In this document: piece by piece, positions 3 through 16,308 of the stretch | Numbering within the stretch: the stretch's first letter is position 1 | Layout of the letters: every line of letters begins with the position of its first letter | Source of the DNA: a virus | Strand: one strand, 5' to 3' | IMG/VR virus record: IMGVR_UViG_3300027833_001204 | Coordinates: 1-27,015 of that record | Length of the DNA stretch: 27,015 nt | Notes under the pieces: model-generated | The model's input: the letters and a program-made list of their open reading frames with translations, nothing else | What the model was told of the DNA's origin: nothing | The model's database searches: none | Program-made: the position numbers and the translations under genes

Positions 3-407
3 GTCACTCTCAAGCCCCAGTCCGATCCAACCGCCTCCCACGTGGTACATGGATACACTGAAGACCAGATCACAACAATGCGACAAGGATTCCCTCAGCA
101 CTGGAACGGAGAGCAAATTGCACAAATTGAACTCAAAGATGCTCAAGGAGTAACTTACGAGTTAGATCAAGCAGAACGCTTCAATGCATTTGGCTTTAAC
201 AAGTTCAAAGGATGGACTTGCAACGCAGGATATCAAGGATGTGTTATACGTGAGAACGAAGTCAAGCGTAGCTACAGTTGCCACGATGAGCCCTTAGGCA
301 CGTTAGACGGCGGATTTGAGCTCTTTAAGGCACCACGCAAGTGTATTACTCCTAGTTGTGTAAGTAGTGCTGATAGCAAAATACCAAAGGTAAAATATGA
401 AAATTGA
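3..407 (+). CDS. Radical SAM protein, C-terminal part only (cut by left edge)
   Basis: The frame is open to the left edge, so the apparent GTG start at 42 is probably internal and only the C-terminal third is present. The visible part carries an FKGWTCNAG motif, then a Cys about 20 residues later (SYSC), a LGTL turn and a C-terminal CITPSC pair. The same ordered pattern ends the radical SAM proteins at 3485-4435 and 6572-7480, so I assign it to that family (GWxCNxG type). The radical SAM CX3CX2C motif itself would lie outside the window. In this family the C-terminal Cys residues probably bind an auxiliary Fe-S cluster (SPASM/twitch-like); that role is inferred. It overlaps the next gene by 11 bases, consistent with translational coupling. 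Substrate unknown. Confidence 0.75.
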   Translation, partial: VTLKPQSDPTASHVVHGYTEDQITTMRQGFPQHWNGEQIAQIELKDAQGVTYELDQAERFNAFGFNKFKGWTCNAGYQGCVIRENEVKRSYSCHDEPLGTLDGGFELFKAPRKCITPSCVSSADSKIPKVKYEN

Positions 408-1005
408 TATACAAGACGTATTATTTTGGATGGATGCTATTCGCAACAGCGATGATAGATATCGCACACTTGAAAGTTTTTGGAAAGGGCAAATAAACAG
501 TAAAGTATGGCTAGCAACCGAGTTATATAAAACAATATCCAAAACAAAGAAGAATAATATAGTTATATACGGTGGTTGGAACGGAGTGCTGGCAAGTATA
601 CTGTTTAACAGTCGCCTACCGTTAAACAGCATTACAAGCGTGGATATAGACCCTGTGTGCGAAGATATAGCAAACACAGTAAACAAGCGTTATGAAATGA
701 AAGGCAAGTTTAGTGCTGTAACAGCAGACATGTGTGAATATACAAAATCTGCAGATGTAGTTATAAACACTAGTTGTGAGCATATTTCACAAGAACAATA
801 CGAACAATGGTTAGACAATCAACCAGACGATGCACTATTTGTTGTACAGAGCAATAACTATTTTGCACACGATGAACATATACGTTGTGCAATAGATGCA
901 GATGACTTTATGCGTATGAGTAAACTTAAACCGTTTTGGCGCGGTGAATTTGAAACTCCTAAGTATACTCGTTATATGATAATAGGTAAAAAGAAAAATG
1001 TTTAG
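397..1005 (+). CDS. Class I SAM-dependent methyltransferase-like protein
   Basis: A protein of 202 residues with a Rossmann-type methyltransferase pattern. A beta strand ends in the glycine-rich loop GGWNG (about residues 59-63), an acidic end of strand 2 follows in SVDIDP (81-86), then TADM near 110 and a strand-4-like VVINTSCEH segment (about 121-129). The last 40 residues are basic and end in KKKNV. It sits inside a run of overlapping radical SAM genes, overlapping its neighbours by 11 bases upstream and 8 downstream, so it is very likely co-translated and may act in the same modification pathway. I see no motif that gives the acceptor (protein, sugar, nucleic acid or small molecule). The fold call is moderately sure, the substrate unknown. 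Confidence 0.65.
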   Translation: MKIDIQDVLFWMDAIRNSDDRYRTLESFWKGQINSKVWLATELYKTISKTKKNNIVIYGGWNGVLASILFNSRLPLNSITSVDIDPVCEDIANTVNKRYEMKGKFSAVTADMCEYTKSADVVINTSCEHISQEQYEQWLDNQPDDALFVVQSNNYFAHDEHIRCAIDADDFMRMSKLKPFWRGEFETPKYTRYMIIGKKKNV

Positions 1006-2077
1006 CTTTAGTGATTTAAAAGATATACACTTAGAAATTACAAATCGCTGCCAAGCAAGTTGTCCAATGTGTAGTAGAAACTATCACGGCGGTCTTGAAA
1101 ATCCTCTCATTAAAAACAATGACTGGACATTAGAAGATTTTAAAAAGATAATATCAATAGATGTACTTGAACAAATAAATGGTTTTTACTTTTGTGGAAA
1201 CTTTGGTGATCCTATTATCAATGACGAATTAATTGAGATGGTAGAATATGCCGCAACAATTAATCCTAAATTAAATATTAGAATACACACAAACGGAAGT
1301 GCAAGAAATATAGACTGGTGGACACGACTTGCAACAGTATTGCCGGATACACATAACGTTATTTTTGCCATTGACGGATTAGAAGATACACATAAGCTCT
1401 ATCGAATAGGAACAAGCTACAGAAAGATATTACAAAATGCAAAAGCATTTATTGATGCAGGTGGAACAGCAGAATGGTGTTTTATAAAATTTAAACACAA
1501 CGAGCATCAAGTAGAACAAGCACAGGACATTGCAAAACAACTAGGCTTTAGCTTATTTGTTGAAAAGAATAGCAGCAGATTTATCGGTACTCCTAAATTT
1601 CCTGTATACAACAAGACTGGAGAAACTACACATTACTTAGAAGCACCTAGTAATAGTGATGTTACATTTATTACAGAAGACACAGTTAAAAATTATAAAG
1701 ATATATTAAGTAATTCAAAAATAGACTGTTATGTATTACAAACTAAAGAAGTATATATTGATGCATATAAAAATATATTTCCCTGTTGCTTCTTAGCAAG
1801 CACACCATACAACTATGCAAAACCAAATGACATTACAACTACGGTAAGAACACACATGCACGAACAGTATTTAGACTTAATAGAAAAATTAGGAAATACT
1901 AATGCACTTGAAAATACGTTACAACAAGTAATTGATTCACTTCCTTGGCAAACTGTGTGGAAAAACTATTGGGGCGACGACATGTTAATTACATGCGCAA
2001 GAACTTGTGGTCGATCAAAAGAATTGCCTAAGCCCAAGGATCAATTTATTAAAGTAATAGGATTAAACAATGAGTGA
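998..2077 (+). CDS. Radical SAM protein with SPASM-like C-terminus
   Basis: A 359-residue protein with a radical SAM motif close to the N-terminus: C18-X3-C22-X2-C25, within NRCQASCPMC, which binds the 4Fe-4S cluster that cleaves S-adenosylmethionine. The usual GGEP motif after strand 2 is replaced by GNFGDP (about residue 67). The C-terminal part has further Cys residues (KIDCYV, FPCCF, CARTC), as in SPASM domains that carry auxiliary clusters. SPASM proteins commonly act on peptides or proteins, and some on sugars or other small molecules; which applies here cannot be read. It overlaps the methyltransferase-like gene by 8 bases and the next radical SAM gene by 8 (ATGAGTGA). It differs from the GWxC-type paralogues nearby and has no counterpart in the mirrored leftward operon within this window. 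Confidence 0.85.
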   Translation: MFSFSDLKDIHLEITNRCQASCPMCSRNYHGGLENPLIKNNDWTLEDFKKIISIDVLEQINGFYFCGNFGDPIINDELIEMVEYAATINPKLNIRIHTNGSARNIDWWTRLATVLPDTHNVIFAIDGLEDTHKLYRIGTSYRKILQNAKAFIDAGGTAEWCFIKFKHNEHQVEQAQDIAKQLGFSLFVEKNSSRFIGTPKFPVYNKTGETTHYLEAPSNSDVTFITEDTVKNYKDILSNSKIDCYVLQTKEVYIDAYKNIFPCCFLASTPYNYAKPNDITTTVRTHMHEQYLDLIEKLGNTNALENTLQQVIDSLPWQTVWKNYWGDDMLITCARTCGRSKELPKPKDQFIKVIGLNNE

Positions 2078-3488
2078 AAACTGGTGGTATAATAATAAAG
2101 ATAGTGAACTAGGTAAGTATCAGCGAAACATTGAAACTAGTTCAAATAGTCCTACATTCTGCGTTTTACCTTGGATACATTTTGCTACTAGGCCCAATGG
2201 TGATATGAGATTATGCTGTTCGTCAAATGCTAGTGGCGCAGGAGGAGACCATACTGTTGGTCTTGTCAAAATGGAAAACGGTAAAGCAGCTAACTTTGGC
2301 AAAGATACACCTATGGAAGCATGGAATAATGAATACATGAAAAGTGTAAGGACGACTATGCTTGATGGCAAAATACCTGCAAGTTGTGCAAAGTGTTTTC
2401 AAGAAGAAAAGGTGGGCGTAGTAAGTAAGCGTATATGGGAAACAGAAACTTGGCGTCGAGATGACGACGGCGTAGATATTCCATACTTAATTGAGCAAAC
2501 ACAAGCAGACGGAACAGTACCGGAAGAATTAGTTTACTTAGATCTGCGACTAGGCCATACGTGTAATATTAAATGCGTAATGTGTAGTCCACACGATAGT
2601 TCAAAGTGGGTAGCAGATCATAAAAAACTTATTCCTGTATTACAAGATCCGGAAGTTAAAAGGCAAATGCAATTTGACAGAAGTACATTTAACAATAAGT
2701 GGCATGAAAAAGATACATTCTGGGAAGAAATGTATGCACAAATACCTAATCTAAAACAAGTGTACTTTGCAGGCGGCGAGCCTTTAATGATTAAAGAACA
2801 CAAGATGTTTATTGAAGAAATATTACGTCAAGGATATCAAGATAAAATACTTCTACGTTATAACTCTAATGGATTATTAGTTGACGAAGATCTAATTGAA
2901 ATGTGGAGCAAGTTTAAAAAAGTAAAGTTTGCTATTAGTATGGATGCTAGTCACGGACGTGACGAATATATACGCTTTCCTACAGACTTTGAAACTGTAG
3001 AAAAAACTCTACATATGCTTGACAACACGCCTGATAACATACAAACAAGTTTAGCAACAGCAATACAAATATTCAATGTAAAGCACTTGCCTGACTTTAT
3101 GAAATGGAAACTTGAAAGTGGATTTAAAAAGCTAAATGTTGGTACAGTTCCGGGTGGTGTACAAATGGGCGGCGGCTTAGTTAATATGCACTTACTGTAC
3201 ATTCCAACGTTCCTTAGTATTCAAATACTACCAGAACACGACAAGCAAGAAGTTAAAGAACGCTTTATGGACTTCAAAGATTACTTGTGGAACAATTACA
3301 GACAAGACGATGATTTTTGGAAGCATAATCCGTATGGATGGAAACGTTGGGAAGCTGTAATGAATCATATGAATGCACAAGACAACAGTCATTTACTTCC
3401 GGGCTTTAAAGAATACACAAACAAACTTGATGCAATACGTAACCTAAATGCAGCAAAAGTATTTCCTGAACTTGCACACTTGTTATGA
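2070..3488 (+). CDS. N-twitch-domain radical SAM protein (rightward copy)
   Basis: A 472-residue protein. The N-terminal Cys-rich region (C31 in FCVLPW, C49-C50 after RPNGDMR, C106 and C109 in CAKC) matches the N-terminal twitch type of radical SAM protein, where an Fe-S domain precedes the core. The core has C165-X3-C169-X2-C172 (GHTCNIKCVMC) and GGEP at about 235-238. A second protein with the same Cys layout is at 7473-8795, on the other strand. It overlaps its upstream neighbour by 8 bases and its downstream one by 4 (ATGA). It is the first gene of a three-gene cassette that occurs again, inverted, on the minus strand. Function: SAM-dependent radical chemistry on an unknown substrate, probably together with its two downstream partners. 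Confidence 0.88.
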   Translation: MSENWWYNNKDSELGKYQRNIETSSNSPTFCVLPWIHFATRPNGDMRLCCSSNASGAGGDHTVGLVKMENGKAANFGKDTPMEAWNNEYMKSVRTTMLDGKIPASCAKCFQEEKVGVVSKRIWETETWRRDDDGVDIPYLIEQTQADGTVPEELVYLDLRLGHTCNIKCVMCSPHDSSKWVADHKKLIPVLQDPEVKRQMQFDRSTFNNKWHEKDTFWEEMYAQIPNLKQVYFAGGEPLMIKEHKMFIEEILRQGYQDKILLRYNSNGLLVDEDLIEMWSKFKKVKFAISMDASHGRDEYIRFPTDFETVEKTLHMLDNTPDNIQTSLATAIQIFNVKHLPDFMKWKLESGFKKLNVGTVPGGVQMGGGLVNMHLLYIPTFLSIQILPEHDKQEVKERFMDFKDYLWNNYRQDDDFWKHNPYGWKRWEAVMNHMNAQDNSHLLPGFKEYTNKLDAIRNLNAAKVFPELAHLL

Positions 3489-4435
3489 TCAACCGCATTG
3501 AAAACAATCAAGATCTAGATTTAGTTCGTATTGAATATATGCCAGGTAACGTCTGCAACCATAAGTGTCATTATTGTTTTCCAGGAAGTAATGAAGGTAA
3601 TTATATTTGGCCTGATGTTGAAGTAGTAAAAAGGAATTTGTCTCATTTACTTACACATTATGAAAATAATGGCAAACCTAAAAGTAACTTATATATTGTA
3701 GGAGGCGAACCTACACTGTGGAAAGGCTTAGAGGAATTATGCCAATACCTAAAAGCAAATCATAATATTATTATAGAAATGAGTACAAATGGTACACGTA
3801 AAAAAATCTGGTGGAAAAATAATGCAAAAAACTTTGATCATGTTGAAGTCAGTGTACACAGAGAGTTTGCTAACTTAGATCATCTTATTGAGGTATGCGA
3901 CACACTGTATGACTTAGGAGTGTTTGTTAATGCTGATGTTTTAATAGATCCAGATGCTTGGGATCAGTGTATAGATAATGTTGAATATTTGAAAACAAAT
4001 TCTAAAAATAAATGGCCGATTATTGCAAAAGTAGTTCACTTCAACGGTAAACATAGATATAACGATACACAACTAGAATATTTTAAAGAAGTAATTAAAC
4101 AATACCCTACACAAGAATGGTTTGAAACAACAACTAAAAAGCCTCTTAGAGAAGTTAAAATACACACCGACGATAATATTATTGTTGTAAACAATGACAA
4201 CTATCTAATAGCAAATGGATTAAATAATTTTCAAGGCTGGACTTGTAACTTAGGTGTAGATTTTATAAAAATATTTCCAGATGGAAGAATTACAGGAAAC
4301 TGTCAACAGAAGTTATTTGGTAATCTACACAATAATGATTTTACACAAACATATAGTCCTATAATTGAACCATTAATATGTAATAGACAACTATGTGTAT
4401 GTAGTGAAGAAACGGTAGTAGCAAAACATGCCTGA
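3485..4435 (+). CDS. Radical SAM protein, GWxCNxG type (rightward copy)
   Basis: A 316-residue protein with C24-X3-C28-X2-C31 (NVCNHKCHYC) and GGEP at 73-76, the two hallmarks of the radical SAM core. The C-terminal part has FQGWTCNLG, then a DGRITGNC strand about 20 residues on, an LFGNL turn and a terminal ICNRQLCVC cluster, an arrangement suited to one auxiliary Fe-S cluster. Its closest relative in the window is 6572-7480 (FEGWKCNAG, DGEVHRATC, ICTRKWCTC). The ATG overlaps the upstream stop as ATGA, and the stop overlaps the next start by 8 bases, so production is tightly coupled. Substrate unknown. Confidence 0.87.
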   Translation: MINRIENNQDLDLVRIEYMPGNVCNHKCHYCFPGSNEGNYIWPDVEVVKRNLSHLLTHYENNGKPKSNLYIVGGEPTLWKGLEELCQYLKANHNIIIEMSTNGTRKKIWWKNNAKNFDHVEVSVHREFANLDHLIEVCDTLYDLGVFVNADVLIDPDAWDQCIDNVEYLKTNSKNKWPIIAKVVHFNGKHRYNDTQLEYFKEVIKQYPTQEWFETTTKKPLREVKIHTDDNIIVVNNDNYLIANGLNNFQGWTCNLGVDFIKIFPDGRITGNCQQKLFGNLHNNDFTQTYSPIIEPLICNRQLCVCSEETVVAKHA

Positions 4436-5492
4436 CTTTGATATATTAGAACCTTTAGATAATCTATACTTTTCAGTAGAATGGGAAACTACTTTAAAAT
4501 GTAATCTAGACTGTAGTTACTGTGGTAAAGATGGACATGATAACACTAAACCTCATCCTAGTTTAGATGATAGTTTAAAAACACTAGACTTTATGTTTGA
4601 TTACTTAGACCTACAAATGAAAGATAAACCGCAATACTTTCAACAGCATGTTAATTTAAATATATTTGGCGGGGAAAGTTTATTTCACCCTAATATTATA
4701 GAAATATTAGATTATGCAAATAAAAAAAGAAATGCGGCATCTTGGCAAATGCATATAAGCACAATTACTAATGCAGCAGTTGGCCCAAATCTTTGGAAAA
4801 AGATAGTAGATAAAATAGATTATTTTACTGTTAGTTTCCATGTAGAAAGTTTAGATAAACAAAAAGATCAAATAAAACAAAATTTATTATATCTACAAAA
4901 TAAAGAAAAAAAGTTTCACGTTAGTGTTATGATGCACCCTAAGTATTGGGATGATTGTATTAACATTGTAGAATGGTGTAAAACTAATAATATGGCTTGT
5001 ACTCCGAGACAAATAGACCACCACTGGTTAGATCGAAGATTTATATATAATGACAAGCAATCATCTTTTTTAACCGGAGAAGAACCTATTAGAATAGTAG
5101 ATAAAATAGGAAAGGCATTAACTAGTGGTATAAAGTTAACACCACCTGGCCGATCTTGTTGTAGTAATCAAAATATGTGTACTAACAAATGTGATACAGT
5201 TAATTATGTGCAAAATAACTTTAAAGGATGGCATTGTAGTGTAGATAAATTCTTTTTATATATTAGACAGACAACCGGCGAAGTTTTTACAAACAAAGAT
5301 TGTAAAATGAATCATGAAGGGAAAGTTGGTCCTATTGGTTATTTAAACGACACTCAATCTATTATTAATAATCTAAAAAAAGGAACACCTACTATTATAT
5401 GTAAAAAGTCTGCGTGTTGGTGCGGGCTGTGTGCTCCTAAAGCAAGTAACAAAACGGATTATACCACAATAATGGAAAAATATAAGAGATAA
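4428..5492 (+). CDS. Radical SAM protein, GWHCxVD type (rightward copy)
   Basis: A 354-residue protein with C25-X3-C29-X2-C32 (LKCNLDCSYC). The GGEP motif reads GGES, a substitution in the SAM-binding loop. The C-terminal half has a paired Cys block (SCCSNQNMCTNKC), then FKGWHCSVD, a TGEVFTNKDC strand, a VGPIGYL turn and a terminal CKKSACWCGLC cluster. The gene at 5499-6575 has the same set of elements in the same order, so the two are clear paralogues. It is the last gene of the rightward run; its stop is six bases from the stop of that paralogue. The many C-terminal Cys residues suggest one or two auxiliary clusters. Substrate unknown. Confidence 0.87.
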   Translation: MPDFDILEPLDNLYFSVEWETTLKCNLDCSYCGKDGHDNTKPHPSLDDSLKTLDFMFDYLDLQMKDKPQYFQQHVNLNIFGGESLFHPNIIEILDYANKKRNAASWQMHISTITNAAVGPNLWKKIVDKIDYFTVSFHVESLDKQKDQIKQNLLYLQNKEKKFHVSVMMHPKYWDDCINIVEWCKTNNMACTPRQIDHHWLDRRFIYNDKQSSFLTGEEPIRIVDKIGKALTSGIKLTPPGRSCCSNQNMCTNKCDTVNYVQNNFKGWHCSVDKFFLYIRQTTGEVFTNKDCKMNHEGKVGPIGYLNDTQSIINNLKKGTPTIICKKSACWCGLCAPKASNKTDYTTIMEKYKR

Positions 5493-5498
5493 AAACTG

Positions 5499-6575
5499 TT
5501 AAACGTGTTCTTTAAATATAAGTTCCCATTCAGAAGCTTCTTTGGCCTTAGGTATACACATACCACATCCGCAACGTGCATTAGGGCAAATCATTGGAGT
5601 GTCTAATTGAATTTCGTCTAGCATTTGTTTAGTATTTGACAAGTTACCAATTGCACCTATAGTTCCGTCTTTACGTGCTTGACATGTTTGATGATGATAT
5701 ACTTCGCCAGTTTCTTGGTCAATGTGTAAAAAGAACCAGTCAACCATGCAGTGCCAACCTTTAAATTTATTTTCAACTAATTTAACTGGTTGCCAGTTAT
5801 CTTCAACTAGTCCTTCTAAGCATCTTCCGCCACAACACTTACGACCCATTTCTTCGCCTTCAGCAGGACGTTGGGCTTTTTCAGTTATACCAATGTCTTT
5901 CCAAAACCAGTCTACTTGATCAGCACTATATTCGTGACTTGTTCTTCGCATAATGCCGTCACTATCTTTAAACCATCCAGCTTGGGTTTCATTGCCGTCG
6001 CCTAATGGAACAGCATTATATTTAATATTATAGAGTTTACAAAATTCAACTATCTCTTTTGCTTCCTCAAAATAATCTACATGCATCATTACATTCATTT
6101 GTAGCCAGACATGTTTAAGTTCTTTTACTAGTAATATATTATCAAGCACTCTTTGTTTTAGCATAGGATCAGCTTCAGCATGCCAGCTAATAGTAATTCC
6201 GTCTATGTATTTTGCTATTCGATCTATATGCTTCTTTGGCCAAGTACCGTTAGTAGTTAAACCTACATTGTAACCTTCATAGGTTTTTATATGTTTTACA
6301 ATATCCCAAAACTGTGGATTAACTGTAGGTTCACCACCTGTAAAATCTATATTAACGTGTTGTTGATTTTTTTTATGTAAGTTGTACTTTGTAGTCCATT
6401 CCTGTATAAAGCTGAATGTATTTTTCATTGAATCTAACGATGCGTGTTTACTTGTATTATTATGTCTACTTGCTAGACAATATGTACAATCGTAGTTACA
6501 TCGTCTTCCTAAATCCCATGTAACCATCATTGGTTCTGGATTAATTAAATTAATTGCGGTTGTTGTCGTTATCAT
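5499..6575 (-). CDS. Radical SAM protein, GWHCxVD type (leftward copy)
   Basis: I place the start at the ATG at 6575, which overlaps the upstream stop as ATGA. The reading frame could extend to 6635, but that would overlap the upstream gene by 64 bases and add a segment (MYTQMVYLCC) unlike its paralogue. From 6575 the protein has 358 residues, with C26-X3-C30-X2-C33 (RRCNYDCTYC) and GGEP at 80-83. The C-terminal half has KCCGGRC, FKGWHCMVD, a TGEVYHHQTC strand, an IGAIGNL turn and a CPNARCGCGMC cluster, matching 4428-5492 element by element. It is the last gene of the leftward operon. Probable role: radical SAM enzyme with auxiliary Fe-S clusters, substrate unknown. Confidence 0.87.
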   Translation of the reverse strand: MITTTTAINLINPEPMMVTWDLGRRCNYDCTYCLASRHNNTSKHASLDSMKNTFSFIQEWTTKYNLHKKNQQHVNIDFTGGEPTVNPQFWDIVKHIKTYEGYNVGLTTNGTWPKKHIDRIAKYIDGITISWHAEADPMLKQRVLDNILLVKELKHVWLQMNVMMHVDYFEEAKEIVEFCKLYNIKYNAVPLGDGNETQAGWFKDSDGIMRRTSHEYSADQVDWFWKDIGITEKAQRPAEGEEMGRKCCGGRCLEGLVEDNWQPVKLVENKFKGWHCMVDWFFLHIDQETGEVYHHQTCQARKDGTIGAIGNLSNTKQMLDEIQLDTPMICPNARCGCGMCIPKAKEASEWELIFKEHV

Positions 6576-7480
6576 TCGTTTATAACCTTTGTAAGAGGAA
6601 TATCGGCAACACAAGTACACCATTTGCGTGTACATATAATTGGATCTAAAGGTTGTTCAAATGTGCCATTATAAATATTTCCTAAACTTCCGCCCACTCT
6701 ACATGTGGCGCGATGAACTTCTCCATCCCAGTTGATCATTAAACTTTCTAGACCAGCGTTACACTTCCATCCTTCGAACTGATTTAACTTGTGTTTGATA
6801 ATATCGTTAGCATGTATTTTAGTTTCTTCGTCTACTACACAGTTTGCTTTTACAGTTGCCGTTTTACTTAAGATCCATTCTAAGTCTTTTTCTTTATACC
6901 GCATATCGTCAAACCAATCGCGATCATCTGCTTCGGTCCATCGTATACGTCTGCACACATAAGGTATATTATGTCCTTCTAATAATATAGCAGCAGCTTT
7001 TACATCGTCCATATATTCATGATGACACATTAGATTAACTTGGAACAGCGTATCTTTACTTTCCATATCTAATAGCTGTGTATACCTTAGAACATTTTCT
7101 GATGCTCTCATAGAATGTTCGTTATCAAAATGTAAACTAAACACCCATTGATCAACAGGTTGTTTTACATACCATTCGGGATGTCTTAGTCCGTTGGTTG
7201 TAACACTCAGCCATTGTAGTCGCTTACTTGCACATTCTAATATATCATTAATCTTAGGATGTACAGTAGGTTCACCACCAGTTAAACTTAATCGAATAGG
7301 TTTGTTTATTTGCTCTAGTTCATAAATGGTGTTAACCATAACGTCTAAATCAGTGTGTGGCGAAAAGTTATCATGTATTTCTGCAGGACAGTATGCACAA
7401 TCTAAATTACAGCGTTTCCCAATGTTCCATTCAACATGGATACTATCTTGATGTCCCCAGCGACTTTCTACTTTAAACAT
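6572..7480 (-). CDS. Radical SAM protein, GWxCNxG type (leftward copy)
   Basis: A 302-residue protein with C24-X3-C28-X2-C31 (KRCNLDCAYC) and GGEP at 68-71. The C-terminal part has FEGWKCNAG, a DGEVHRATC strand, a GSLGN turn and a terminal ICTRKWCTC cluster. It pairs with 3485-4435 and also resembles the truncated gene at the left edge. The start overlaps the upstream stop by 8 bases and the stop overlaps the next start as ATGA. It holds the middle place of the leftward cassette, exactly as its paralogue does in the rightward one. Function: radical SAM chemistry, substrate unknown. Confidence 0.87.
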   Translation of the reverse strand: MFKVESRWGHQDSIHVEWNIGKRCNLDCAYCPAEIHDNFSPHTDLDVMVNTIYELEQINKPIRLSLTGGEPTVHPKINDILECASKRLQWLSVTTNGLRHPEWYVKQPVDQWVFSLHFDNEHSMRASENVLRYTQLLDMESKDTLFQVNLMCHHEYMDDVKAAAILLEGHNIPYVCRRIRWTEADDRDWFDDMRYKEKDLEWILSKTATVKANCVVDEETKIHANDIIKHKLNQFEGWKCNAGLESLMINWDGEVHRATCRVGGSLGNIYNGTFEQPLDPIICTRKWCTCVADIPLTKVINE

Positions 7481-8795
7481 ATTGTTTAAACTCTGGGTTA
7501 GCTAATAAAAAATCTTGTCCCCGGGTTTTATCTAAACGTTTGTTAAATTCAATACAGTCTTGCCAGTGTGTGGGGTGCATATCTTTTGCTTGTAAGAAAT
7601 TGATATTATCCTGTATTTGTTGTAGAGTAACCTGTTTGATAATGTCGTTTTCTTTTACTAGTTTATAGTCTAATACCTTAGTCTTCATTTGTTCTAAGCG
7701 GTTAACAACTTTTGTTTTGAGTAATTGTGGTATAACCTGCGCACTAAGAGCCATTGGATAGTTTACTCTATGCGAATAAAATATAATACCCATTTCTTCT
7801 AAAAAGTATTCAATAACTTCGTCAATTTGCATAATGTTATTTGCTTGTACAGTAAATGCACCTACAACCCTGCTTACATTAGGAAAGCTCTTAAATATTT
7901 TTACATTTTTTTCTATTTCACTAAACTTGCCGTTGCCTCTAATGTATTCATATGTGTCGTATATACCGTCTATGCTTACGTTTACAGCAATGCTTTTAAA
8001 CTTAGGCCAATAGTCGTGTATAGTTCGCCCGCCTTTAATACCTAGTGTAGTACCGTTTGTAGCGTATTTTAATTCTATATTCTCACCGTACTGTGCAAGT
8101 TTGTCTAGTATCTTATAGTGGTATGGATCCATTAACGGCTCACCGCCTGCAAACTCTACACGTCTAAAGAACGGTAGTAGTTTTTCAAAACTTGACCACC
8201 AGTTATCTGAGTTGTCAAATGGTCCAATATATTGTCCTGGCTTGTCTACTAGTGCATCGACTGTTGGTATTAGATAGTTGTTTTCTTTTTTGTAAAATTC
8301 AGTAACTTGATCCCAATCTTTCCAGCTTGTACTGTCCAAAGGATTGCACATACGACACTTTAAATTACACAAGTTATTGAGCTTAATTTCCATTGTAGGA
8401 AACTCAAAAGGCATGCTGTAATCGTCGTCTAAAGCGTCTAATGCATCAGGGTACAAGTTGACCCTAGCTTCCGGTATTACCCCCGCTGTATGACGCTGTC
8501 GTAAGCTCTGTACACCCTGATCTTCAAGGTCAAAGCACGGTTTACATACATCAGGACGTTCGTCATTTAGTACTTGTCTGCGTACTTCTTTCATAGCATT
8601 GTTATTCCATGCTTCTTCCAAAGTTTCTTTTTGTATCCATCCAATAGGCTGACTACGACAGCATACTTTGATAGCACCATCTTCTCTTGTAGCTAATCCT
8701 GTAAATGGATGCATACAAAATGTGCAACTATTTGACTTTGCCAAGAGCCCACTCCCTTTCTTTACACCAAAAGCAGTTTCCACACTCCGGAACAT
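7473..8795 (-). CDS. N-twitch-domain radical SAM protein (leftward copy)
   Basis: Numbered from a possible GTG at 8801, the Cys pattern is C29 (FCMHPF), C47-C48, C86 and C89 (CKPC), then the radical SAM motif C145-X3-C149-X2-C152 (NLCNLKCRMC) and GGEP at 219-222. This is the layout of 2070-3488. The start is uncertain: GTG 8801, ATG 8795 (behind an AGGTG ribosome-binding-like sequence; chosen here because it gives an N-terminal length like the paralogue) or TTG 8744 (behind AGGGAG). The first two overlap the upstream PP-loop gene by about 70 bases, the last by 17. All three keep every Cys. It overlaps the next gene by 8 bases and begins the leftward three-gene radical SAM cassette. Confidence 0.85.
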   Translation of the reverse strand: MFRSVETAFGVKKGSGLLAKSNSCTFCMHPFTGLATREDGAIKVCCRSQPIGWIQKETLEEAWNNNAMKEVRRQVLNDERPDVCKPCFDLEDQGVQSLRQRHTAGVIPEARVNLYPDALDALDDDYSMPFEFPTMEIKLNNLCNLKCRMCNPLDSTSWKDWDQVTEFYKKENNYLIPTVDALVDKPGQYIGPFDNSDNWWSSFEKLLPFFRRVEFAGGEPLMDPYHYKILDKLAQYGENIELKYATNGTTLGIKGGRTIHDYWPKFKSIAVNVSIDGIYDTYEYIRGNGKFSEIEKNVKIFKSFPNVSRVVGAFTVQANNIMQIDEVIEYFLEEMGIIFYSHRVNYPMALSAQVIPQLLKTKVVNRLEQMKTKVLDYKLVKENDIIKQVTLQQIQDNINFLQAKDMHPTHWQDCIEFNKRLDKTRGQDFLLANPEFKQYV

Positions 8796-9408
8796 TGTCA
8801 CCTGGTTTATATGTTTTATAATTCAATCCTTCAAACTCTCCTTCACAACTTCGAGTAGTATCTAATAAATCTGTAATGTTGTGATTATAATATTGTTGTA
8901 TGATCCAGTCTTTTTTAGTATACACGAAAGGATGACAAATGTCAATACCATTATGTACAAAATGTGGCTCAATGTGTCCATAGTCACGTTCTTCAACTTT
9001 GCCCGGAATATCAACATCTGGATTCATATTTACACCTGCATAAAGCGCATCTAAGTTGTACTTGTGTGCAATATACTCGTTGTGCGAGCGTAGTATAATT
9101 CTGTTGCCTGACTTCATTTTTCCATATTCGTCTTTGATAAGATATTCTGTAGGTTCCTCTAATTCAGGCGGAACTAAATTCTTATGTACATAAAACATAT
9201 GATCAAAGTTATTTTTAAACCATGCAATTACATTGTCGGCAACGTCTTCTTGCCAAGGTCTTGTTTTCCAGCAACGTATTTGTGTATTAAAATGTATTTC
9301 TATAGTTGTACTTACATTTTTACATATTAAGTAAGTGAGTAATGCACTGTCAGCACCACCACTTAAACTAATTCCAATACGTTTCCAATCTTTATTAATA
9401 TTTAACAA
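8728..9408 (-). CDS. QueC-like PP-loop ATPase with a Cys-rich C-terminus
   Basis: A 226-residue protein. SLSGGADSALL near residue 14 is the PP-loop of adenylating enzymes such as QueC, asparagine synthetase and GuaA. The C-terminus has a Cys set (RSCEGEF, then ECGNCFWCKER) laid out like the zinc site of QueC. QueC converts 7-carboxy-7-deazaguanine to preQ0, but this protein is divergent and lies among radical SAM genes rather than with QueE and FolE about 17 kb away, so another adenylation or amide/nitrile-forming role is as likely. The only start that fits is TTG at 9408: an in-frame stop lies four codons upstream and no ATG precedes the PP-loop. GAGG lies about 10 bases before it. It overlaps the upstream gene by 7 bases. 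Confidence 0.72.
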   Translation of the reverse strand: MLNINKDWKRIGISLSGGADSALLTYLICKNVSTTIEIHFNTQIRCWKTRPWQEDVADNVIAWFKNNFDHMFYVHKNLVPPELEEPTEYLIKDEYGKMKSGNRIILRSHNEYIAHKYNLDALYAGVNMNPDVDIPGKVEERDYGHIEPHFVHNGIDICHPFVYTKKDWIIQQYYNHNITDLLDTTRSCEGEFEGLNYKTYKPGDNVPECGNCFWCKEREWALGKVK

Positions 9409-10673
9409 TGTATTATATCCTCAAACCAATGACAGTTATTGTATTTAATTTTTGTATTTTCAATTTTTTGAATTGCTAGTTTAATATCTTGATTACTATA
9501 TTGTAAGTGTGTCATAGGATATTCTGATAGTATTGTACTAGTACATAATAATGTATCATCTTTCATAAACTTTGTTATTTTGTCAGTGTTTTTTATTAAA
9601 TCTATGTGTATAAATGATATGTTAGTATTTTCGCGCCAAGTGTTCCATAACGGAAAAAAATTCTGTACTGTATCAGTTTTAAGTGAATTAGAAAATATTA
9701 AGTCTGATTCTATAATAGGCTCGAGTAAAATATCTTTATCTTTACACCAATCCAAAACAAACGTCTCGTAATTGTTTCCGTCCCAATTTGCATACAGATG
9801 TTTTTTAAATTCAATATTATAAAAATTTGTATCATAGAATACTAATGTATTGCTACCTGCATTTAATGCTGTCATTTCTCCTAGAAATCCAGTTGCCGGA
9901 GATATCACAGTGTCTATATTTGAAAACATAGGAGAGTTTTCAAAGTGCCAAACGTTTAGAACTTTAAATTCCAATAAGTCATTGATTAATTCAATAAACA
10001 ATTCTTGTGCATTATCTAATCCTTCTATAATTTTTAGACTCTTAAGAGCATCTTCAAACCTATCAGTATTTTGAAGAGGATAACAATATCCTCGAGCTGG
10101 CAAATGCATACGTAGTCTGTTAGGAGGATATCGCCAATTTTCGTCCCAGTTACTAACACTAAAATTGTTTTCTAAACATTGTTCGATTATCTTAGTACCA
10201 AATTTGTCGTGTCTTGTTACAATATTATCTTCCATTGTAACGTATAAAGGAGCCCAGCCGCCGTGCATATCTTCAACACTCCGGCGTAAGTATTTGCCTT
10301 TAGCATATCCTTCATTAAAATTTAAATTTTTAAATGCAGATGTTCTTAATATAAAAAATTGTTCGTGAAAGTGTGGAGTTGTCTCATCGTCTTTTTGTAG
10401 TAAATGTGCCATTAGCCCTATATTAGACGGAATGTTATGTATGCTATTCCATATATGATCCGGCTCTAATATCACAGTGCCTGCAGTTGCTACTATGATT
10501 AACTCTGTTTTATCTAAATATTTTTCAATATCGTAATACGAATCTACAACTTCAATGGGGTAACCGTCATTATTGGTGATACTAATGAACGATTTAGTTA
10601 TCTGCATCATTTTATCATTTAACCAAGCACTATTAGAAAAGCTCGGTACTAAAACGAAAATCGCCTTGTGCAT
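9402..10673 (-). CDS. Two-part protein of unknown function, methyltransferase-like C-terminus
   Basis: A 423-residue protein I do not recognise. The first roughly 230 residues start with a hydrophobic strand (AIFVLVPSF), alternate strands and helices, and hold a HEQFFILRTSAF segment and a WAPLYVT segment, which recall GT-A-like glycosyltransferases without giving a clear DxD motif. The last roughly 190 residues have SPATGFLGEMTALNAG followed by LVFYDTN, which resembles a Rossmann nucleotide-binding loop and the end of strand 2 in methyltransferases. Both domain readings are tentative. It overlaps the upstream oxygenase gene by 41 bases, unusually much for this operon, and the PP-loop gene by 7. 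A role in the same pathway is inferred from position only. Confidence 0.6.
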   Translation of the reverse strand: MHKAIFVLVPSFSNSAWLNDKMMQITKSFISITNNDGYPIEVVDSYYDIEKYLDKTELIIVATAGTVILEPDHIWNSIHNIPSNIGLMAHLLQKDDETTPHFHEQFFILRTSAFKNLNFNEGYAKGKYLRRSVEDMHGGWAPLYVTMEDNIVTRHDKFGTKIIEQCLENNFSVSNWDENWRYPPNRLRMHLPARGYCYPLQNTDRFEDALKSLKIIEGLDNAQELFIELINDLLEFKVLNVWHFENSPMFSNIDTVISPATGFLGEMTALNAGSNTLVFYDTNFYNIEFKKHLYANWDGNNYETFVLDWCKDKDILLEPIIESDLIFSNSLKTDTVQNFFPLWNTWRENTNISFIHIDLIKNTDKITKFMKDDTLLCTSTILSEYPMTHLQYSNQDIKLAIQKIENTKIKYNNCHWFEDIIHC

Positions 10674-11280
10674 TTTGATCCTCCATTGCTTGATTCATTA
10701 TTGATTTCCATTCATCTGTTGAATCGTAGTGGTGTACTATTAGATGATATCGATCTTGATTACTATCATTCTTTACAGAGTGTGTATAACTAATATTTAC
10801 AGCATAAGCATCTCCAGGTAAAAAGTTTAAAGTACCTTCTTCCCAGTGCCATACACATTCTTTAGGATTTGATATTGCAAAGTTTACAGCACCTAGTACT
10901 TTATGATCAGTATCAGTATGTGGCTCAATATATCCTCCCGGCTCAAGCAACATAAAACGAACTCGAGCATAATGGTTACTAGGATACACTTGTTCTAACC
11001 ATTTTTTTGTAACAGGACAAGAATCAGCTATTTCTGTCCATTGCATATCACTTACAGCATCTTGGCAAGAATCGTAATATTCAGCCCATGCATACGGTTC
11101 TTTACTAGACTTGCCTATAATAGGAAGGCTATACCAACCTTTGGTTTTGTAAGTACTTCTGTATTCTATAAATTTATCTTTTAGTGCAGAAGCTTCTTTT
11201 AAAATTTCTTCATGTGGAAATGGAATATTTAATTTTAAACACTTAGCATTACTAAAAAAATATTCACGACCTATGTCCAT
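10633..11280 (-). CDS. Aspartyl/asparaginyl beta-hydroxylase-like Fe(II)/2-oxoglutarate oxygenase
   Basis: A 215-residue protein with the facial triad and 2-oxoglutarate arginine of the double-stranded beta-helix oxygenases: H121-T-D123 in IEPHTDTDH, H167 in YTHSV and R177 in DRYHLIVHH. GGYIEPHTD followed by NFAISNP, a VWHWEEG strand and LPGDAYAVN fits the Asp/Asn beta-hydroxylase family, whose members hydroxylate side chains of proteins or related small substrates using O2 and 2-oxoglutarate. It overlaps its neighbours by 10 (upstream) and 41 (downstream) bases in the leftward operon. Placement with radical SAM and PP-loop genes suggests a shared modification pathway; the actual substrate is unknown. 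Confidence 0.8.
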   Translation of the reverse strand: MDIGREYFFSNAKCLKLNIPFPHEEILKEASALKDKFIEYRSTYKTKGWYSLPIIGKSSKEPYAWAEYYDSCQDAVSDMQWTEIADSCPVTKKWLEQVYPSNHYARVRFMLLEPGGYIEPHTDTDHKVLGAVNFAISNPKECVWHWEEGTLNFLPGDAYAVNISYTHSVKNDSNQDRYHLIVHHYDSTDEWKSIMNQAMEDQNAQGDFRFSTELF

Positions 11281-11828
11281 CGTTCGTGCCTTTCTAAATT
11301 TTCAATGAATTTATCAGCGTGTATTTGCCATACTGTTTGATCAGTATGTCTATAATGTATGTCTTTGATTTTTTCAACAATGCCTAATTTAGCAAGTGTA
11401 GGAAAGTAATAGCTGTGTACTAATCTTTGGCTAGCAACAGTACTTGAATTACTTGTAGCATACATATTACCGTGTCCTGCCCATTTAATACATTGTGGAA
11501 GTAAAAATTGATCTGTTAAATTTTGATGTTCGGCAACTAACTTTTTAGGAGTAATAAGGCCTTTGTCCTTGCGGGACTCTGCAAATGTGCATACTCTAGT
11601 AAGTATTCTATAACTGTTTGGTCCCATAACATCGTCAAAACTGTGTGCTGCACAACTACCAACAGCACGATTGTTTTCGTATAATATCCAAACTTGCCAT
11701 TCACGTTCGTTATTAAAGCAATCAATCATTGCTTTTTGACTACTGTTATTAACAAATCCTCTACTAGTTGCTTCTGCATAAAACTCAGTTAGATCAAGTT
11801 GAGGGGTCCACTCTACTAGATTAAACAT
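11271..11828 (-). CDS. GNAT-like acyltransferase fold protein (tentative)
   Basis: A 185-residue protein. The segment REWQVWILYENNRAVGSCAA, followed by a strand-rich RILTRVCTF stretch, resembles the central strands of GNAT N-acyltransferases, where a residue's amine is acylated from acyl-CoA. The usual acetyl-CoA pyrophosphate loop (Q/RxxGxG/A) is not evident, so the call rests on the overall pattern. It overlaps the upstream kinase-like gene by 8 bases and the downstream oxygenase gene by 10. If the call is right it would be another group-transfer enzyme in the leftward operon. It could equally be a non-enzymatic relative. Confidence 0.5.
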   Translation of the reverse strand: MFNLVEWTPQLDLTEFYAEATSRGFVNNSSQKAMIDCFNNEREWQVWILYENNRAVGSCAAHSFDDVMGPNSYRILTRVCTFAESRKDKGLITPKKLVAEHQNLTDQFLLPQCIKWAGHGNMYATSNSSTVASQRLVHSYYFPTLAKLGIVEKIKDIHYRHTDQTVWQIHADKFIENLERHERWT

Positions 11829-12513
11829 AAATTTCTTTAGCCTTTTCCATTACATCATCTCTAAAGTTTGTTTTAAAACTATCAAATGCTAACAATTGTA
11901 TTTTTTGATGTTGAGTCGGCGCATCAACGTCAATGCCATTTGCTTGCATTTTAGGAAATAAGTCTGCTTGTCTATCTTCACTAATGTGGCTCATTACACT
12001 ACGTAAACTTATATCGTCATCACTTGAATCGTATGTAAAGAAATAATTCATACTTTTGAGTTTACCGTCTACAATAAAATAACTTGAAGGGTGCAAACTA
12101 TATTTGGTTAATCCTAAGTCTTTGTGTGCTTGTATAATTTCAAGCATCTGTGTATCCCAATCTGGTAAAACTTTCGAATAATCTGTACCAACACATCCAG
12201 CAAGTTCCCACATGTCAGGCCCGTCTATTTCTAAGTAGACTTTCCTAAACTCGTAGTCAATTTTAAATGCTGGTACGTGTTGCGGATACTCCTCACGCAT
12301 TAGTCTAAGATACTTTATTTCACGTTCAAACTTTTCATCCATTAAGTCTGCATCAACAACTTGATTATGTCCTCCGTGGTATCCTTCATCGTTGTAATAC
12401 CATTGACAAAACTTTCGTTTGTCGTCACTAATAAGGCTAGTGTAGATAAGATTGTTTCTACACAGTCCTTTTTCAGGTACATTGTTGTAATAATAGTCAT
12501 AATGATTCTGCAT
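11821..12513 (-). CDS. Kinase-like fold protein, probably degenerate
   Basis: A 230-residue protein and the first gene of the leftward operon. YLEIDGPDMWEL (about 93-104) resembles a kinase hinge, and KYSLHPSSYFIVDGKLKSMNYF (about 137-158, given here in short form: LHPSSYFIV, then DGKLKSMNYF) has the spacing of an aminoglycoside-kinase-type catalytic loop plus metal-binding strand. The expected catalytic Asp is a Ser or Pro and the metal Asp is replaced by Asn, so it may be a pseudokinase. The gene at 13893-14456 has a similar block. Its start lies 26 bases from the divergent start of 12540-13355 and no strong ribosome-binding sequence precedes it. Function unknown. Confidence 0.55.
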   Translation of the reverse strand: MQNHYDYYYNNVPEKGLCRNNLIYTSLISDDKRKFCQWYYNDEGYHGGHNQVVDADLMDEKFEREIKYLRLMREEYPQHVPAFKIDYEFRKVYLEIDGPDMWELAGCVGTDYSKVLPDWDTQMLEIIQAHKDLGLTKYSLHPSSYFIVDGKLKSMNYFFTYDSSDDDISLRSVMSHISEDRQADLFPKMQANGIDVDAPTQHQKIQLLAFDSFKTNFRDDVMEKAKEIYV

Positions 12514-12539: not shown

Positions 12540-13355
12540 ATGATTAAAGGAATTGGCGGGAAGCCCTATATAAACTTAGACCCTTACTTAGATATAGATG
12601 GATTTAAACAAATGCATCCTGAAATTTGTAAAGGATTTGCACTTGCACGTGACTATGCAAAAGAAGGCACCTGGATGGCCCCTGGATTTGATTGGAAAGA
12701 TGCTAGTTATATAATGAACTGGAAACCAATCTATAAAGCATGGGAAGAATATCAAGAACTAGATGATACTAATCCTATCAAGATTGAAGGTAATAAAATA
12801 TTACCTAAAGATTTTGGTGATTACAAACAGCGTAATATCTTTACACGCTATCTTAAAACTACATTGGGAGCAAACGATCCGTACATATATTACTTTTTAT
12901 GGAATGAAGGTGACTGGAATCAACGTAGTGCTGAACGTCAAAAAACAGAAGAAGCAATGTACTTTCCAGGAGTAGTTAATTGGGTTGAAAACTTACAAAC
13001 ACAAGGAATTATTGATCGTATTGGCAGAGTTATATTTTTTCACTGTGACCATAATGGTCGAGCATTTGAACATAGAGACTTAGACGCAGATAATGGAGTA
13101 CACGATGATAATCAATATAGTCCGCACAATGATGAATTTATACATATACGATATCGCACAAAGAGAGGATTCTATGTTTGGGATCCCGAGAGCGAAAATA
13201 AACACTACATAAACTGTAATGCAGCATTTTGGAATGACCAAGATTGGCACGGTGGTGAAAGTAGTGAAGAAGTAGAATATGGATTACGTATTGACTGTAA
13301 ATTTACATCTGAGTTTAGAAAAACACTTGGTATAGATTATTTAGATACGTACTAA
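12540..13355 (+). CDS. Fe(II)/2-oxoglutarate-oxygenase-like protein
   Basis: A 271-residue protein, the only rightward gene after 5492. It shows H178-R-D180 (FEHRDLD), H237 in DWHGGE and R250 in YGLRID, in the order and spacing of a double-stranded beta-helix oxygenase triad and its 2-oxoglutarate-binding arginine. The N-terminal 160 residues are helical and not recognised. It diverges from the kinase-like gene across a 26-base gap and its stop overlaps the convergent gene at 13352 by 4 bases. Hydroxylation of an unknown substrate is the likely role, inferred from motifs alone. Confidence 0.65.
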   Translation: MIKGIGGKPYINLDPYLDIDGFKQMHPEICKGFALARDYAKEGTWMAPGFDWKDASYIMNWKPIYKAWEEYQELDDTNPIKIEGNKILPKDFGDYKQRNIFTRYLKTTLGANDPYIYYFLWNEGDWNQRSAERQKTEEAMYFPGVVNWVENLQTQGIIDRIGRVIFFHCDHNGRAFEHRDLDADNGVHDDNQYSPHNDEFIHIRYRTKRGFYVWDPESENKHYINCNAAFWNDQDWHGGESSEEVEYGLRIDCKFTSEFRKTLGIDYLDTY

Positions 13356-13900
13356 CCCCAAATATTAAATAGATACTTAGGTTCTAATCCTGCGTTAGCT
13401 CCAGCATGCCAGCTCTTTCTATCTGGCCATTGATATACATTTCCTTGTGCTTCGTTATAAAAACACTTATCTTCTACAATAAATGTATGTCCAGGTTTAG
13501 GAATATCAATATGACAGTGATATCTTTTCATATCACCTGTAGAATTTAACGTAGCTTCGTCGTCTGTAATATCCCAATGCCATGGAGCAATATCACCAGG
13601 TTCTACTTTACTAATCCAGCAATTTATATAAGACGTCATTCCTGTAAATGCCATAAATTTATCAACTACTTCTTTTGAAAACTGTTGCCCTGGAAAAAAC
13701 ATACCCCAACTAGCATTGCCGCCTTCTGCTTTAAATTTATATCCTGCATCTCTAATAGGCTGAACAACCTCATCTACGCCTTCTACTTCATGTCCTACAT
13801 CATGTCTAGGCCCTATATAGGCAGGCGACACGTTATTAATTTCGAGTATAACAGTATTCCAGTCAATAACATCATTACAATTTCCTATAAATTTAATCAT
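13352..13900 (-). CDS. Fe(II)/2-oxoglutarate-oxygenase-like protein
   Basis: A 182-residue protein. The pattern is H108-W-D110 (APWHWD), a strand with YHCHIDIP, then H165 in SWHAGAN and a basic residue near 175 (EPKYLFNIWG), which fits the HxD...H...K/R layout of a short 2-oxoglutarate oxygenase. The ATG overlaps the upstream kinase-like stop by 8 bases (ATGATTAA), and the 3' end overlaps the end of the opposite-strand oxygenase gene by 4 bases, so transcripts from the two strands collide here. Substrate unknown. The motifs are convincing, but the subfamily is not one I can name. Confidence 0.65.
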   Translation of the reverse strand: MIKFIGNCNDVIDWNTVILEINNVSPAYIGPRHDVGHEVEGVDEVVQPIRDAGYKFKAEGGNASWGMFFPGQQFSKEVVDKFMAFTGMTSYINCWISKVEPGDIAPWHWDITDDEATLNSTGDMKRYHCHIDIPKPGHTFIVEDKCFYNEAQGNVYQWPDRKSWHAGANAGLEPKYLFNIWG

Positions 13901-14456
13901 TTAATGCTCCTCCGGGCCAGTCACCTATATTATTTTTTAATGTGTAATTATATGCATAGTCAACATCTAGATAACCGTTTTTAAATATAAATCTATCTTT
14001 GTTGTTTATAACACTTTTAAGAATCTTTTCTGATATCTTGTCTTCTTTTGGTATACATGCATGTAAATCCATGATGTGCATTTTATCTTCCTTTATGTAA
14101 AATGTATGCGGATAAGCATTAATTTTATAAACATCTATACTTTCTAAATCTTTTAATATATCTTTAATTTGCTGTCGCCAATCACTAGGTAATTCTTTGT
14201 TATAATGTAGCATATTATTAATATTCGTATTATACCATTTGAAAGTTATTTGCATTGTTTTAGCATCTACACTTATAATTTCAGGAGCATATGATTTATG
14301 ACTTACTAATCCTATTCCTCTTAGTTCCATATCAAACCAATATTTTTCATGAAAAGACATTACAAAGATATCATCATTATAATAACCATTATACATTGGA
14401 GTAGGTGTACACGCATATCCGTCTATATATTTTTTAAATTGTACTAGGTTATTCAT
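13893..14456 (-). CDS. Kinase-like fold protein
   Basis: Numbered from the ATG at 14456, a 187-residue protein. The frame can be opened from a TTG at 14468, but the ATG overlaps the upstream stop by 8 bases, as its neighbours do, so I prefer it. KINAYPHTFYIKEDKMHIMDL (middle of the protein; key residues K, N, H, then the D of IMDL) resembles the catalytic-loop Asn and metal-binding Asp region of small-molecule kinases, and it shares this block with 11821-12513. The N-terminal half has alternating strands that could be the N-lobe (FVMSFHEKYWFDMEL). Phosphotransfer to an unknown target is possible. It sits between two oxygenase-like genes. Confidence 0.5.
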   Translation of the reverse strand: MNNLVQFKKYIDGYACTPTPMYNGYYNDDIFVMSFHEKYWFDMELRGIGLVSHKSYAPEIISVDAKTMQITFKWYNTNINNMLHYNKELPSDWRQQIKDILKDLESIDVYKINAYPHTFYIKEDKMHIMDLHACIPKEDKISEKILKSVINNKDRFIFKNGYLDVDYAYNYTLKNNIGDWPGGALND

Positions 14457-16270: not shown

Positions 16271-16300
16271 GTAAGTACTCCTGGTATCGTTCTTATAATG

Positions 16301-16308
16301 TATTTATG
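16301..16308 (-). promoter_or_regulatory. T4-type late-promoter-like box (CATAAATA) for the tail-fibre gene
   Basis: CATAAATA on the minus strand, about 30 bases before the fibre ATG. A T4-type start site six bases past the box would give a leader of about 25 bases carrying AGGAG eight bases before the ATG. The match to NATAAATA is exact; use as a late promoter is inferred. Confidence 0.55.

Follow-up and report, generated by a model that had tools for sequence, protein, structure and literature searches.

Since 2010 phages with about a dozen radical S-adenosylmethionine (rSAM) genes have been reported, but why they carry so many has not been explained. The Campylobacter phages CP220 and CPt10 have 11-12 of them per genome, and the largest region in which the two differ is a module of five rSAM genes with a putative amidinotransferase (PMC2853527). 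Twelve rSAM genes were found in the T4-like ocean virus TARA_ERS488813_N000010 and were read as Fe-S metabolism (PMC5332604). Furthermore, rSAM cassettes are carried in the host recognition cluster of pelagimyophages, a hypervariable tail-fibre region with glycosyltransferases (PMC7029224), and rSAM and glycosyltransferase genes were listed together for viruses of the Tasman Sea (PMC7150976). Here we analyzed the 27,015-base IMG/VR virus record IMGVR_UViG_3300027833_001204 (the window), a fragment of a large virus of aquatic bacteria with a gene running off each contig end. It contains six complete rSAM genes in two overlapping triplets, F1-F2-F3 on the plus strand and R1-R2-R3 on the minus strand, which converge with 6 bases between them; the triplets and the genes around them are here referred to as the island. 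A sequence-only reading of the window had known of no described phage system of this form. The inverted pair layout was indeed not found in the literature searched (mainly open-access articles, with preprints outside the search), but multi-rSAM phage modules as such were already published, in the accessible portions of PMC2853527, PMC5332604 and PMC7029224 without a function or this layout.

Like the CP220/CPt10 module, the island holds several rSAM genes, and homologues of the amidinotransferase occur in two related contigs (G002 and G012). The CP220 module comes after baseplate genes and holds, besides the amidinotransferase, two genes whose annotation names nucleotide-sugar transferase domains. 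However, its rSAM proteins belong to other families (24-33% in local matches), its genes all share a strand, and an N-twitch profile (see below) was the best-scoring one for none of its proteins. The ocean virus, according to the accessible part of that report, is likewise T4-like and rich in rSAM genes. PF01521 Fe-S carriers were present here in 0 of 12 contigs. Pelagimyophages represent another lineage. This is seen in a 353-kb relative contig (G004), in which T4-type gp23, TerL, gp18, gp20, gp21, gp43 and others were matched to HTVC008M: its gp23 was 71% identical to that of Vibrio phage 2.275.O and 68% to that of 121Q-like E. coli phages, compared with 33% for HTVC008M gp23, and its TerL was 53% identical to PA5oct TerL. 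Judged by gp23, TerL and a length above 200 kb, G004 is a T4-superfamily jumbo phage. In the window itself RNase H was the sole match to T4-type phage genes. HTVC008M had a single match to the rSAM families of the island, an F2/R2-related gene annotated as hypothetical (L168 26812-28182) whose neighbours carry the annotations glycosyltransferase, methyltransferase, carbamoyltransferase and UDP-glucose dehydrogenase. In a collection of 50,697 annotated phage records only distant relatives (22.8-32.8% identity) of F1, R2 and R3 were found, in 3, 8 and 3 records, respectively.

The two tail-to-tail triplets had been proposed from the sequence alone, and they held: at the positions given in Table 1 all six open reading frames (ORFs) were free of internal stops and exceeded the Radical_SAM cut-off of Pfam (PF04055, 29.5 bits) with 34.6-56.1 bits. 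The claim that all neighbours overlap was true within the triplets, where overlaps of 4 and 8 bases were found on both sides, but not for F3 and R3, which are separated by the gap at 5493-5498. The start of R1 may lie inside position 8795, since at its 5' end it shares 68 bases with the PP-loop gene f10 and R1 of the relative locus L020 begins closer to the first Cys. Beyond the triplets, a seventh complete rSAM gene (R0) and a cut-off eighth (Cfull), neither mentioned in the earlier reading, belong to the island, together with a methyltransferase-like gene (MT), the QueC-like PP-loop gene and hydroxylase-like genes. On the F side successive overlaps lead from the end of Cfull through MT and R0 to F1. 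The R side consists of eight overlapping minus-strand genes from 12513 to 5499 (f5, f14, f9, f23, f10, R1, R2 and R3), and between 397 and 15111 just 32 bases are outside accepted genes. We read the two convergent, overlapping gene runs as putative operons.

To what extent this arrangement is conserved was seen in three samples. A scan with R3 yielded 34 loci, which were collapsed at 90% identity into 19 clusters. The tandem R1-R2-R3 was present in 14 of the 19 (14/17 with upstream room), although the spacing rule let through L036 and L039, in which R1 and R2 are separated by an F2-like gene. F1 was found opposite R3 in 16 clusters, F1, F2 and F3 together in 12 and both full triplets in 10 of the 19, so that homologues do occur as ordered triplets, as had been expected. 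Two broader scans used the N-twitch and GWxCN profiles; among the first 600 stretches of each, at least 596 (F1 as query) and at least 475 (R2) could be confirmed. Counts refer to the best 80 loci per scan, dereplicated to 55 (F1) and 53 (R2); these samples come from IMG/VR, have contigs in common, favour close relatives and depend on score thresholds of our own setting. In the F1 sample R2 was opposite in 38 and R1 in 37 of the 41 loci with room; F2 was present in 25/41, R3 in 7/41 and F3 in 4/41. The R2 sample had F1 opposite in 40, F2 in 29 and F3 in 7 of 42 loci. R1 was directly upstream of R2 in 30/41 and R3 directly downstream in 15/53, and the PP-loop gene f10 lay on the same strand within 4 kb upstream of R2 in 29/39. 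In this analysis F2 immediately followed F1 in 26/50 loci, and R0 was located immediately 5' of F1 in 22/51 dereplicated loci. Since F2 was missing opposite R2 in 13/42 loci, it is less constant than F1 and the R side.

The conserved core of the island is thus an inverted pair of pairs, F1-F2 facing R2-R1, while R3 and F3, each present in a minority of loci, are added where the two gene runs meet. As the arrangement recurs in many contigs, it is not due to chance. The triplet had been regarded as the basic working unit; even though both triplets recur, we rejected an ancestral triplet as the general state, because R3 and F3 are in the minority in the broad samples. Additionally, F3 stands alone in L010 and L011, where no other match to the rSAM proteins of the window was found at E 1e-3. 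F3 and R3 tend to occur together (both in 7 loci, only R3 in 6, only F3 in 1, neither in 28; Fisher p 0.0004 with kinship ignored).

The junction itself is variable. F3 directly faced R3 in only 3 of the 19 R3 clusters, and in 10 of the other 16 another gene was present at the junction, for example an additional N-twitch-like rSAM gene in L020, L021 and L045, R0 in L033, L036, L039, L044 and L046, and the hydroxylase-like f9 in L037. In L018 and L019 an additional N-twitch-like rSAM gene is likewise located at the junction. R3 was located on the F strand in L026, L027 and L032, and F2 or F1 came directly after R3 in L029, L030 and L047.

Three kinds of rSAM enzyme are found in the triplets: N-twitch (F1, R1), GWxCN (F2, R2) and GWHC (F3, R3). 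The N-twitch kind has an auxiliary-cluster domain N-terminal to the core, the GWxCN kind an auxiliary-cluster region C-terminal to it, and the GWHC kind carries more C-terminal Cys. The motif CX3CX2C was present in all seven complete rSAM-family ORFs of the window (QueE excluded), and all seven passed PF04055. Among the rSAM proteins of the window listed, only F1 (388.1 bits) and R1 (330.6 bits) exceeded the curated cut-off of 170 bits for the N-twitch family NF033640; F2, F3, R3 and R0 reached 34-40 bits and the family was absent among the matches listed for R2. We know of no reaction assigned to NF033640. SPASM (PF13186) was found above its cut-off at the N-termini of F1 (residues 31-109) and R1 (27-87), and BtrN was weakly matched by the N-twitch kind over profile positions 12-87. 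F2, F3, R2 and R3 had no PF13186 match at E 0.01, and the model of R3 matched SPASM/twitch enzymes with Z 15-18.

Relatives of the GWHC (24), N-twitch (30) and GWxCN (30) kinds were aligned. The catalytic Cys were invariant in all three alignments, as were nearly all auxiliary Cys. The GWHC kind has eight invariant non-core Cys; the other two have four plus a near-invariant fifth each, the four of the N-twitch kind being N-terminal. A twitch domain is described as holding one auxiliary cluster and a SPASM domain two (PMC10470005). Because of the eight versus four to five non-core Cys, the GWHC kind probably carries two auxiliary clusters and the other kinds one. GWHC and GWxCN profiles could be aligned by hhalign over most of their length (probability 100, E 6.5e-48, 305 columns), whereas GWHC and N-twitch were alignable over 160 columns in the core only.

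AlphaFold2 (AF2) models were obtained for R3 and F1 with a predicted local distance difference test (pLDDT) score of 86.1 and 88.1, respectively. The top PDB match of R3 was BlsE (7vob), a cytosylglucuronate decarboxylase (Z 18.4, root-mean-square deviation 4.0, 276 aligned residues, 16% identity). Judged by folds and motifs, the triplet proteins appear to be active rSAM enzymes that carry auxiliary clusters, a reading that is well supported though not proved.

Each triplet gene had been paired with its counterpart on the opposite strand, and an old duplication of the cassette had been considered. By blastp the pairs F1-R1 (28% over 393 columns, E 7e-41) and F3-R3 (30% over 351 columns, E 8e-49) were confirmed, but F2-R2 was weaker (24% over 321 columns, E 3e-14) and the best paralogue of R2 was R3 (29%, E 8e-25), not F2. 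Two trees were calculated, both by quick searches and with many long branches. In the 91-sequence tree F3 and R3 were sister clades separate from all others (support 99 in the Shimodaira-Hasegawa-like approximate likelihood ratio test), while F2 and R2 each formed their own group. Holding F2 and R2, or R2, R3 and F3, together gave trees that outscored the quick free tree by about 5 log units (p 0.63 and 0.64, respectively). As both constrained trees score better, the placing of F2 and R2 in the quick tree is unreliable, and the two may or may not be sisters. Among 88 N-twitch proteins R1 formed one clade (support 99) and F1 was placed apart from it, in a group (98) that also contains five phage-like sequences and two from Bdellovibrionota; an approximately unbiased test did not reject a tree with phage F1 and R1 forced together (p 0.10). 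A duplication is thus supported for the third pair only, whose members are sisters; for pairs 1 and 2 a single duplication of the finished triplet is unsupported.

The genomic setting points to tail genes. In the related contig G008 the order is baseplate wedge protein (phrog_10646), a 5230-amino-acid (aa) virion protein and tail-fibre proteins, followed by two genes that resemble glycosyltransferases by eye, f11, N-twitch genes, the island, a fibre-like gene (by eye) and RNase H. The scanned first 1889 aa of the 5230-aa ORF (L163 14332 to L164 10024) matched the virion structural phrog_10938. The order of the by-eye glycosyltransferase pair, f11 and an N-twitch rSAM gene behind tail genes was the same in L014, a distant phage locus on a different, 85-kb contig whose tail genes were assigned by eye. 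In Vibrio phage K566, two GT8 glycosyltransferase genes that pass the Pfam cut-off of 24.3 bits (32.6 and 47.4 bits) are interspersed among rSAM genes related to the N-twitch kind. Four N-twitch-related genes were found there; of three that were scanned two exceeded the NF033640 cut-off and one reached 142 bits. K566 also carries a weakly matched GT4-like gene, and its two gene runs converge tail to tail. Sugar-type genes were present in related islands as well: a DegT aminotransferase (PF01041), an epimerase-like gene (by eye) and homologues of the amidinotransferase. The latter were found in G002 and G012 (E 3.6e-15, 3.8e-13 and 9.6e-8) and in four Bdellovibrionota/deltaproteobacterial loci, and none was found in the window at E 1e-3. 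Cellular neighbourhoods were considered as a guide to the substrate and rejected as too mixed: 4 loci had an amidinotransferase-like cluster, and two SGNH-like clusters (by eye) occurred in 5 and 4 loci.

The number of PF04055 matches was determined in ten chosen records, most of them picked for length: 12 in G001 (65.7 kb), 22 in G002 (117 kb), 11 in G004, 13 in G008 (79 kb), 14 in G009 (76 kb), 2 in G010 (223 kb), 6 in G011 (63.9 kb), 22 in G012 (71.7 kb), 21 in G013 (72.7 kb) and 38 in the bacterial bin G014, compared with 7 in the window. A second cassette with all genes on one strand (f11, MT, R0, an F1-like gene and more) was present in G002 and G012. It resembles the loci L053, L054 and L064, which are filed as bacterial genome bins and which we take to be probable phage DNA. 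L054 (1-21368, from a 'Rickettsiales' bin) has 13 rSAM-family ORFs, one of them a fragment; all share a strand and many directly adjoin one another. Its genome bin gave 38 Radical_SAM matches. Inside the rSAM array of L064 a nucleosidase-like gene of the phosphorylase superfamily is located (15748-16305; PF01048, E 2.9e-15), whose product could clear 5'-deoxyadenosine. A self-supplied handling of 5'-deoxyadenosine or Fe-S clusters was otherwise rejected, since PF01048 and PF01521 were present in 0 of 12 phage contigs; the idea holds at most for L064.

The region is best explained as part of a conserved rSAM tailoring island in T4-superfamily jumbo phages, located beside tail genes. For the product we tentatively favour, at somewhat less than an even chance, that the two operons tailor a surface glycan or a glycosylated tail fibre. 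The context leans towards sugars because of the glycosyltransferases of K566, the sugar-type genes, the tail-fibre region, the exchange between CP220 and CPt10 and the missing room for a precursor; the structural match of R3 to BlsE is counted on the same side. In such a pathway each N-twitch/GWxCN pair would act on one shared intermediate. In each enzyme an unreactive carbon would lose a hydrogen atom to the chemistry of the SAM cluster, with the auxiliary cluster transferring electrons or binding the substrate. A carboxylate might be activated and amidated by the PP-loop protein, and the methyltransferase and hydroxylases would complete the product, a sugar or glycan on the tail fibres or on the surface of the infected cell. 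Each operon would provide one decoration, and an exchange of enzymes at the junction would alter it. The different partners on the two sides (MT-like gene and R0 versus PP-loop ATPase) suit two reactions.

Several findings weigh against a sugar product. The second match of R3, the peptide maturase SkfB (Z 17.5), is less than 1 Z behind BlsE, so that the fold of R3 cannot separate sugar from peptide chemistry. The best Foldseek matches of F1 were peptide maturases, SkfB (6efn) and a sactipeptide enzyme (5why), with BlsE also among its nearest solved structures. None of the 20 scanned window genes passed a glycosyltransferase model. For f11 and the tail-side pair the putative sugar role comes from a motif seen by eye. 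None of the three had a Pfam match; f11 and the first gene of the pair had no match in NCBIfam, the PDB or the phage collection either, and as glycosyltransferases they are thus unsupported. Furthermore, the halogenase, nitroreductase and AMP-dependent ligase-like genes of G002 suit other products equally.

A related possibility, which we consider on balance doubtful, is that the island is a combinatorial factory for radical chemistry. Here the inverted-pair core would be fixed and plug-in rSAM enzymes would vary the decoration of the fibre or host surface, similar to bacterial O-antigen loci. The junction and the neighbouring cassettes would be the plug-in sites, with up to 22 Radical_SAM matches per contig.

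rSAM enzymes perform chemistry that few other enzymes manage, and the paired layout gives a defined, testable unit: F1-F2 and R2-R1 with the PP-loop gene. The tail-gene setting and a named phage, K566, with related genes among glycosyltransferases are offered as well. If the virion or the host surface is tailored, this would be a new phage route to varied recognition. If the exchange of plug-in enzymes is real too, phages would carry exchangeable surface chemistry built on C-H activation. The pairing also raises the question why an N-twitch rSAM is so often located beside a GWxCN rSAM.

The tail genes next to the island would also suit a direct modification of a large virion protein such as the tail fibre, full-length and leaderless, by backbone epimerisation, cross-links or C-H functionalisation as performed by peptide maturases. 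The fold matches to SkfB, 5why, SuiB, anSME and EpeE and the hydroxylase-like genes are consistent with this. However, a separate precursor gene has no room, Pfam and NCBIfam scans gave no N-terminal recognition domain, and models of maturases for ribosomally synthesized and post-translationally modified peptides (RiPPs) were far below their cut-offs among the matches listed; we regard direct modification as unlikely. A RiPP system proper was rejected, as no precursor-peptide gene is adjacent and the 32 uncovered bases leave an ORF overlapping another gene as the possible place for one.

Somewhat less probable still is a diffusible specialised metabolite or cofactor made for the infected cell. 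G002, with its 22 Radical_SAM matches next to halogenase, nitroreductase, AMP-dependent ligase-like and amidinotransferase-like genes, argues for it, but by eye no gene for a carrier protein, nonribosomal peptide synthetase or polyketide synthase was seen (the islands were not scanned for these), and the location in the tail region would be left unexplained. In G002 (L152-L154) the tryptophan halogenase (PF04820, E 3.4e-67), nitroreductase and AMP-dependent ligase-like genes resemble a phage-borne biosynthetic cluster.

Since the window holds QueE, a FolE-like gene and the QueC-like f10, the enzymes might also provide phage DNA or tRNA with a hypermodified nucleoside. This appears improbable, as QueE and FolE form a separate block about 16 kb from f10, f10 travels with R1-R2 (29/39 loci) and its score is barely at the QueC cut-off (23.1 versus 22). 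That some of the enzymes are viperin-like and form chain-terminating nucleotides against rival phages is very improbable: F2, R3 and R2 were matched best in NCBIfam by the prokaryotic viperin model NF038283, but all scores were far below its cut-off of 180 bits (R3 61.6, R2 47.0, F2 42.0, F3 40.5), which led us to reject viperin identity, no nucleotide-kinase model was matched in the 20 scanned window genes, and viperin chains rank under BlsE, SkfB and anSME for R3.

The genes of the island are listed in Table 1. Family counts in the table derive from a comparison of 25 loci, a hand-picked subset that includes near-duplicates and the window itself.

Table 1. Features of the rSAM island in the window (positions from the first base of the record).
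Feature	Position	Strand	Evidence
Cfull, C-terminal part of GWxCN-type rSAM, cut by contig end	3..407	+	35% identity over 71 columns to R2 C-terminus
MT, methyltransferase-like by eye	397..1005	+	family in 25/25 loci, window included
R0, seventh complete rSAM	998..2077	+	PF04055 38.9 bits
F1, N-twitch rSAM, 472 aa	2070..3488	+	NF033640 388 bits
F2, GWxCN-type rSAM, 316 aa, conserved F1 partner	3485..4435	+	PF04055 51.7 bits
F3, GWHC-type rSAM, 354 aa, accessory third gene	4428..5492	+	PF04055 34.6 bits; sister clade of R3
Convergent junction, 6 bases	5493..5498	.	relatives often carry extra genes here
R3, GWHC-type rSAM, 358 aa, accessory third gene	5499..6575	-	PF04055 56.1 bits; AF2 pLDDT 86.1; BlsE Z 18.4
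R2, GWxCN-type rSAM, 302 aa, conserved R1 partner	6572..7480	-	PF04055 42.7 bits
R1, N-twitch rSAM, 440 aa, start codon uncertain	7473..8795	-	NF033640 331 bits
f10, QueC-like PP-loop ATP pyrophosphatase	8728..9408	-	PF06508 23.1 bits, cut-off 22
f23, f13-related	9402..10673	-	25% identity to f13
f9, aspartyl/asparaginyl hydroxylase-like	10633..11280	-	PF05118 E 4.6e-15
f14, conserved	11271..11828	-	family in 9/25 loci
f5, kinase-like by eye, first of eight overlapping R-side genes	11821..12513	-	family in 19/25 loci
f7, conserved	12540..13355	+	family in 18/25 loci
f12, conserved	13352..13900	-	family in 13/25 loci
Second f5-family gene	13893..14468	-	family comparison across 25 loci
f6, weakly aspartyl/asparaginyl hydroxylase-like	14449..15111	-	PF05118 16.5 bits, below cut-off 22.6; family in 19/25 loci
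f20, tail-fibre-like by eye, island edge	15155..16270	-	family in 6/25 loci; weak function-less PHROG matches only

For f10, the NCBIfam scan gave no QueC match and the PDB search a single match at chance level. MT had no match in the Pfam scan, and f23 matched neither Pfam nor PHROG. The two f5-family copies of the window (11821-12513 and 13893-14468) have diverged from each other; they had no PHROG match and no Pfam match above the cut-off. Apart from the island, a pair of 7-deazaguanine-type genes is located at the end of the window: a QueE-like rSAM gene (25620-26513; phrog_2076, E 8.7e-51), followed by a FolE-like gene for GTP cyclohydrolase I that is truncated at the contig end (26513-27013; E 6e-33, below the cut-off).

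In the relative locus L008, Cfull is complete as an ORF of 329 aa. F1 is split there into two ORFs (7636-9061; relative 96% identical) by a frameshift or an assembly error, and it is intact in L009.

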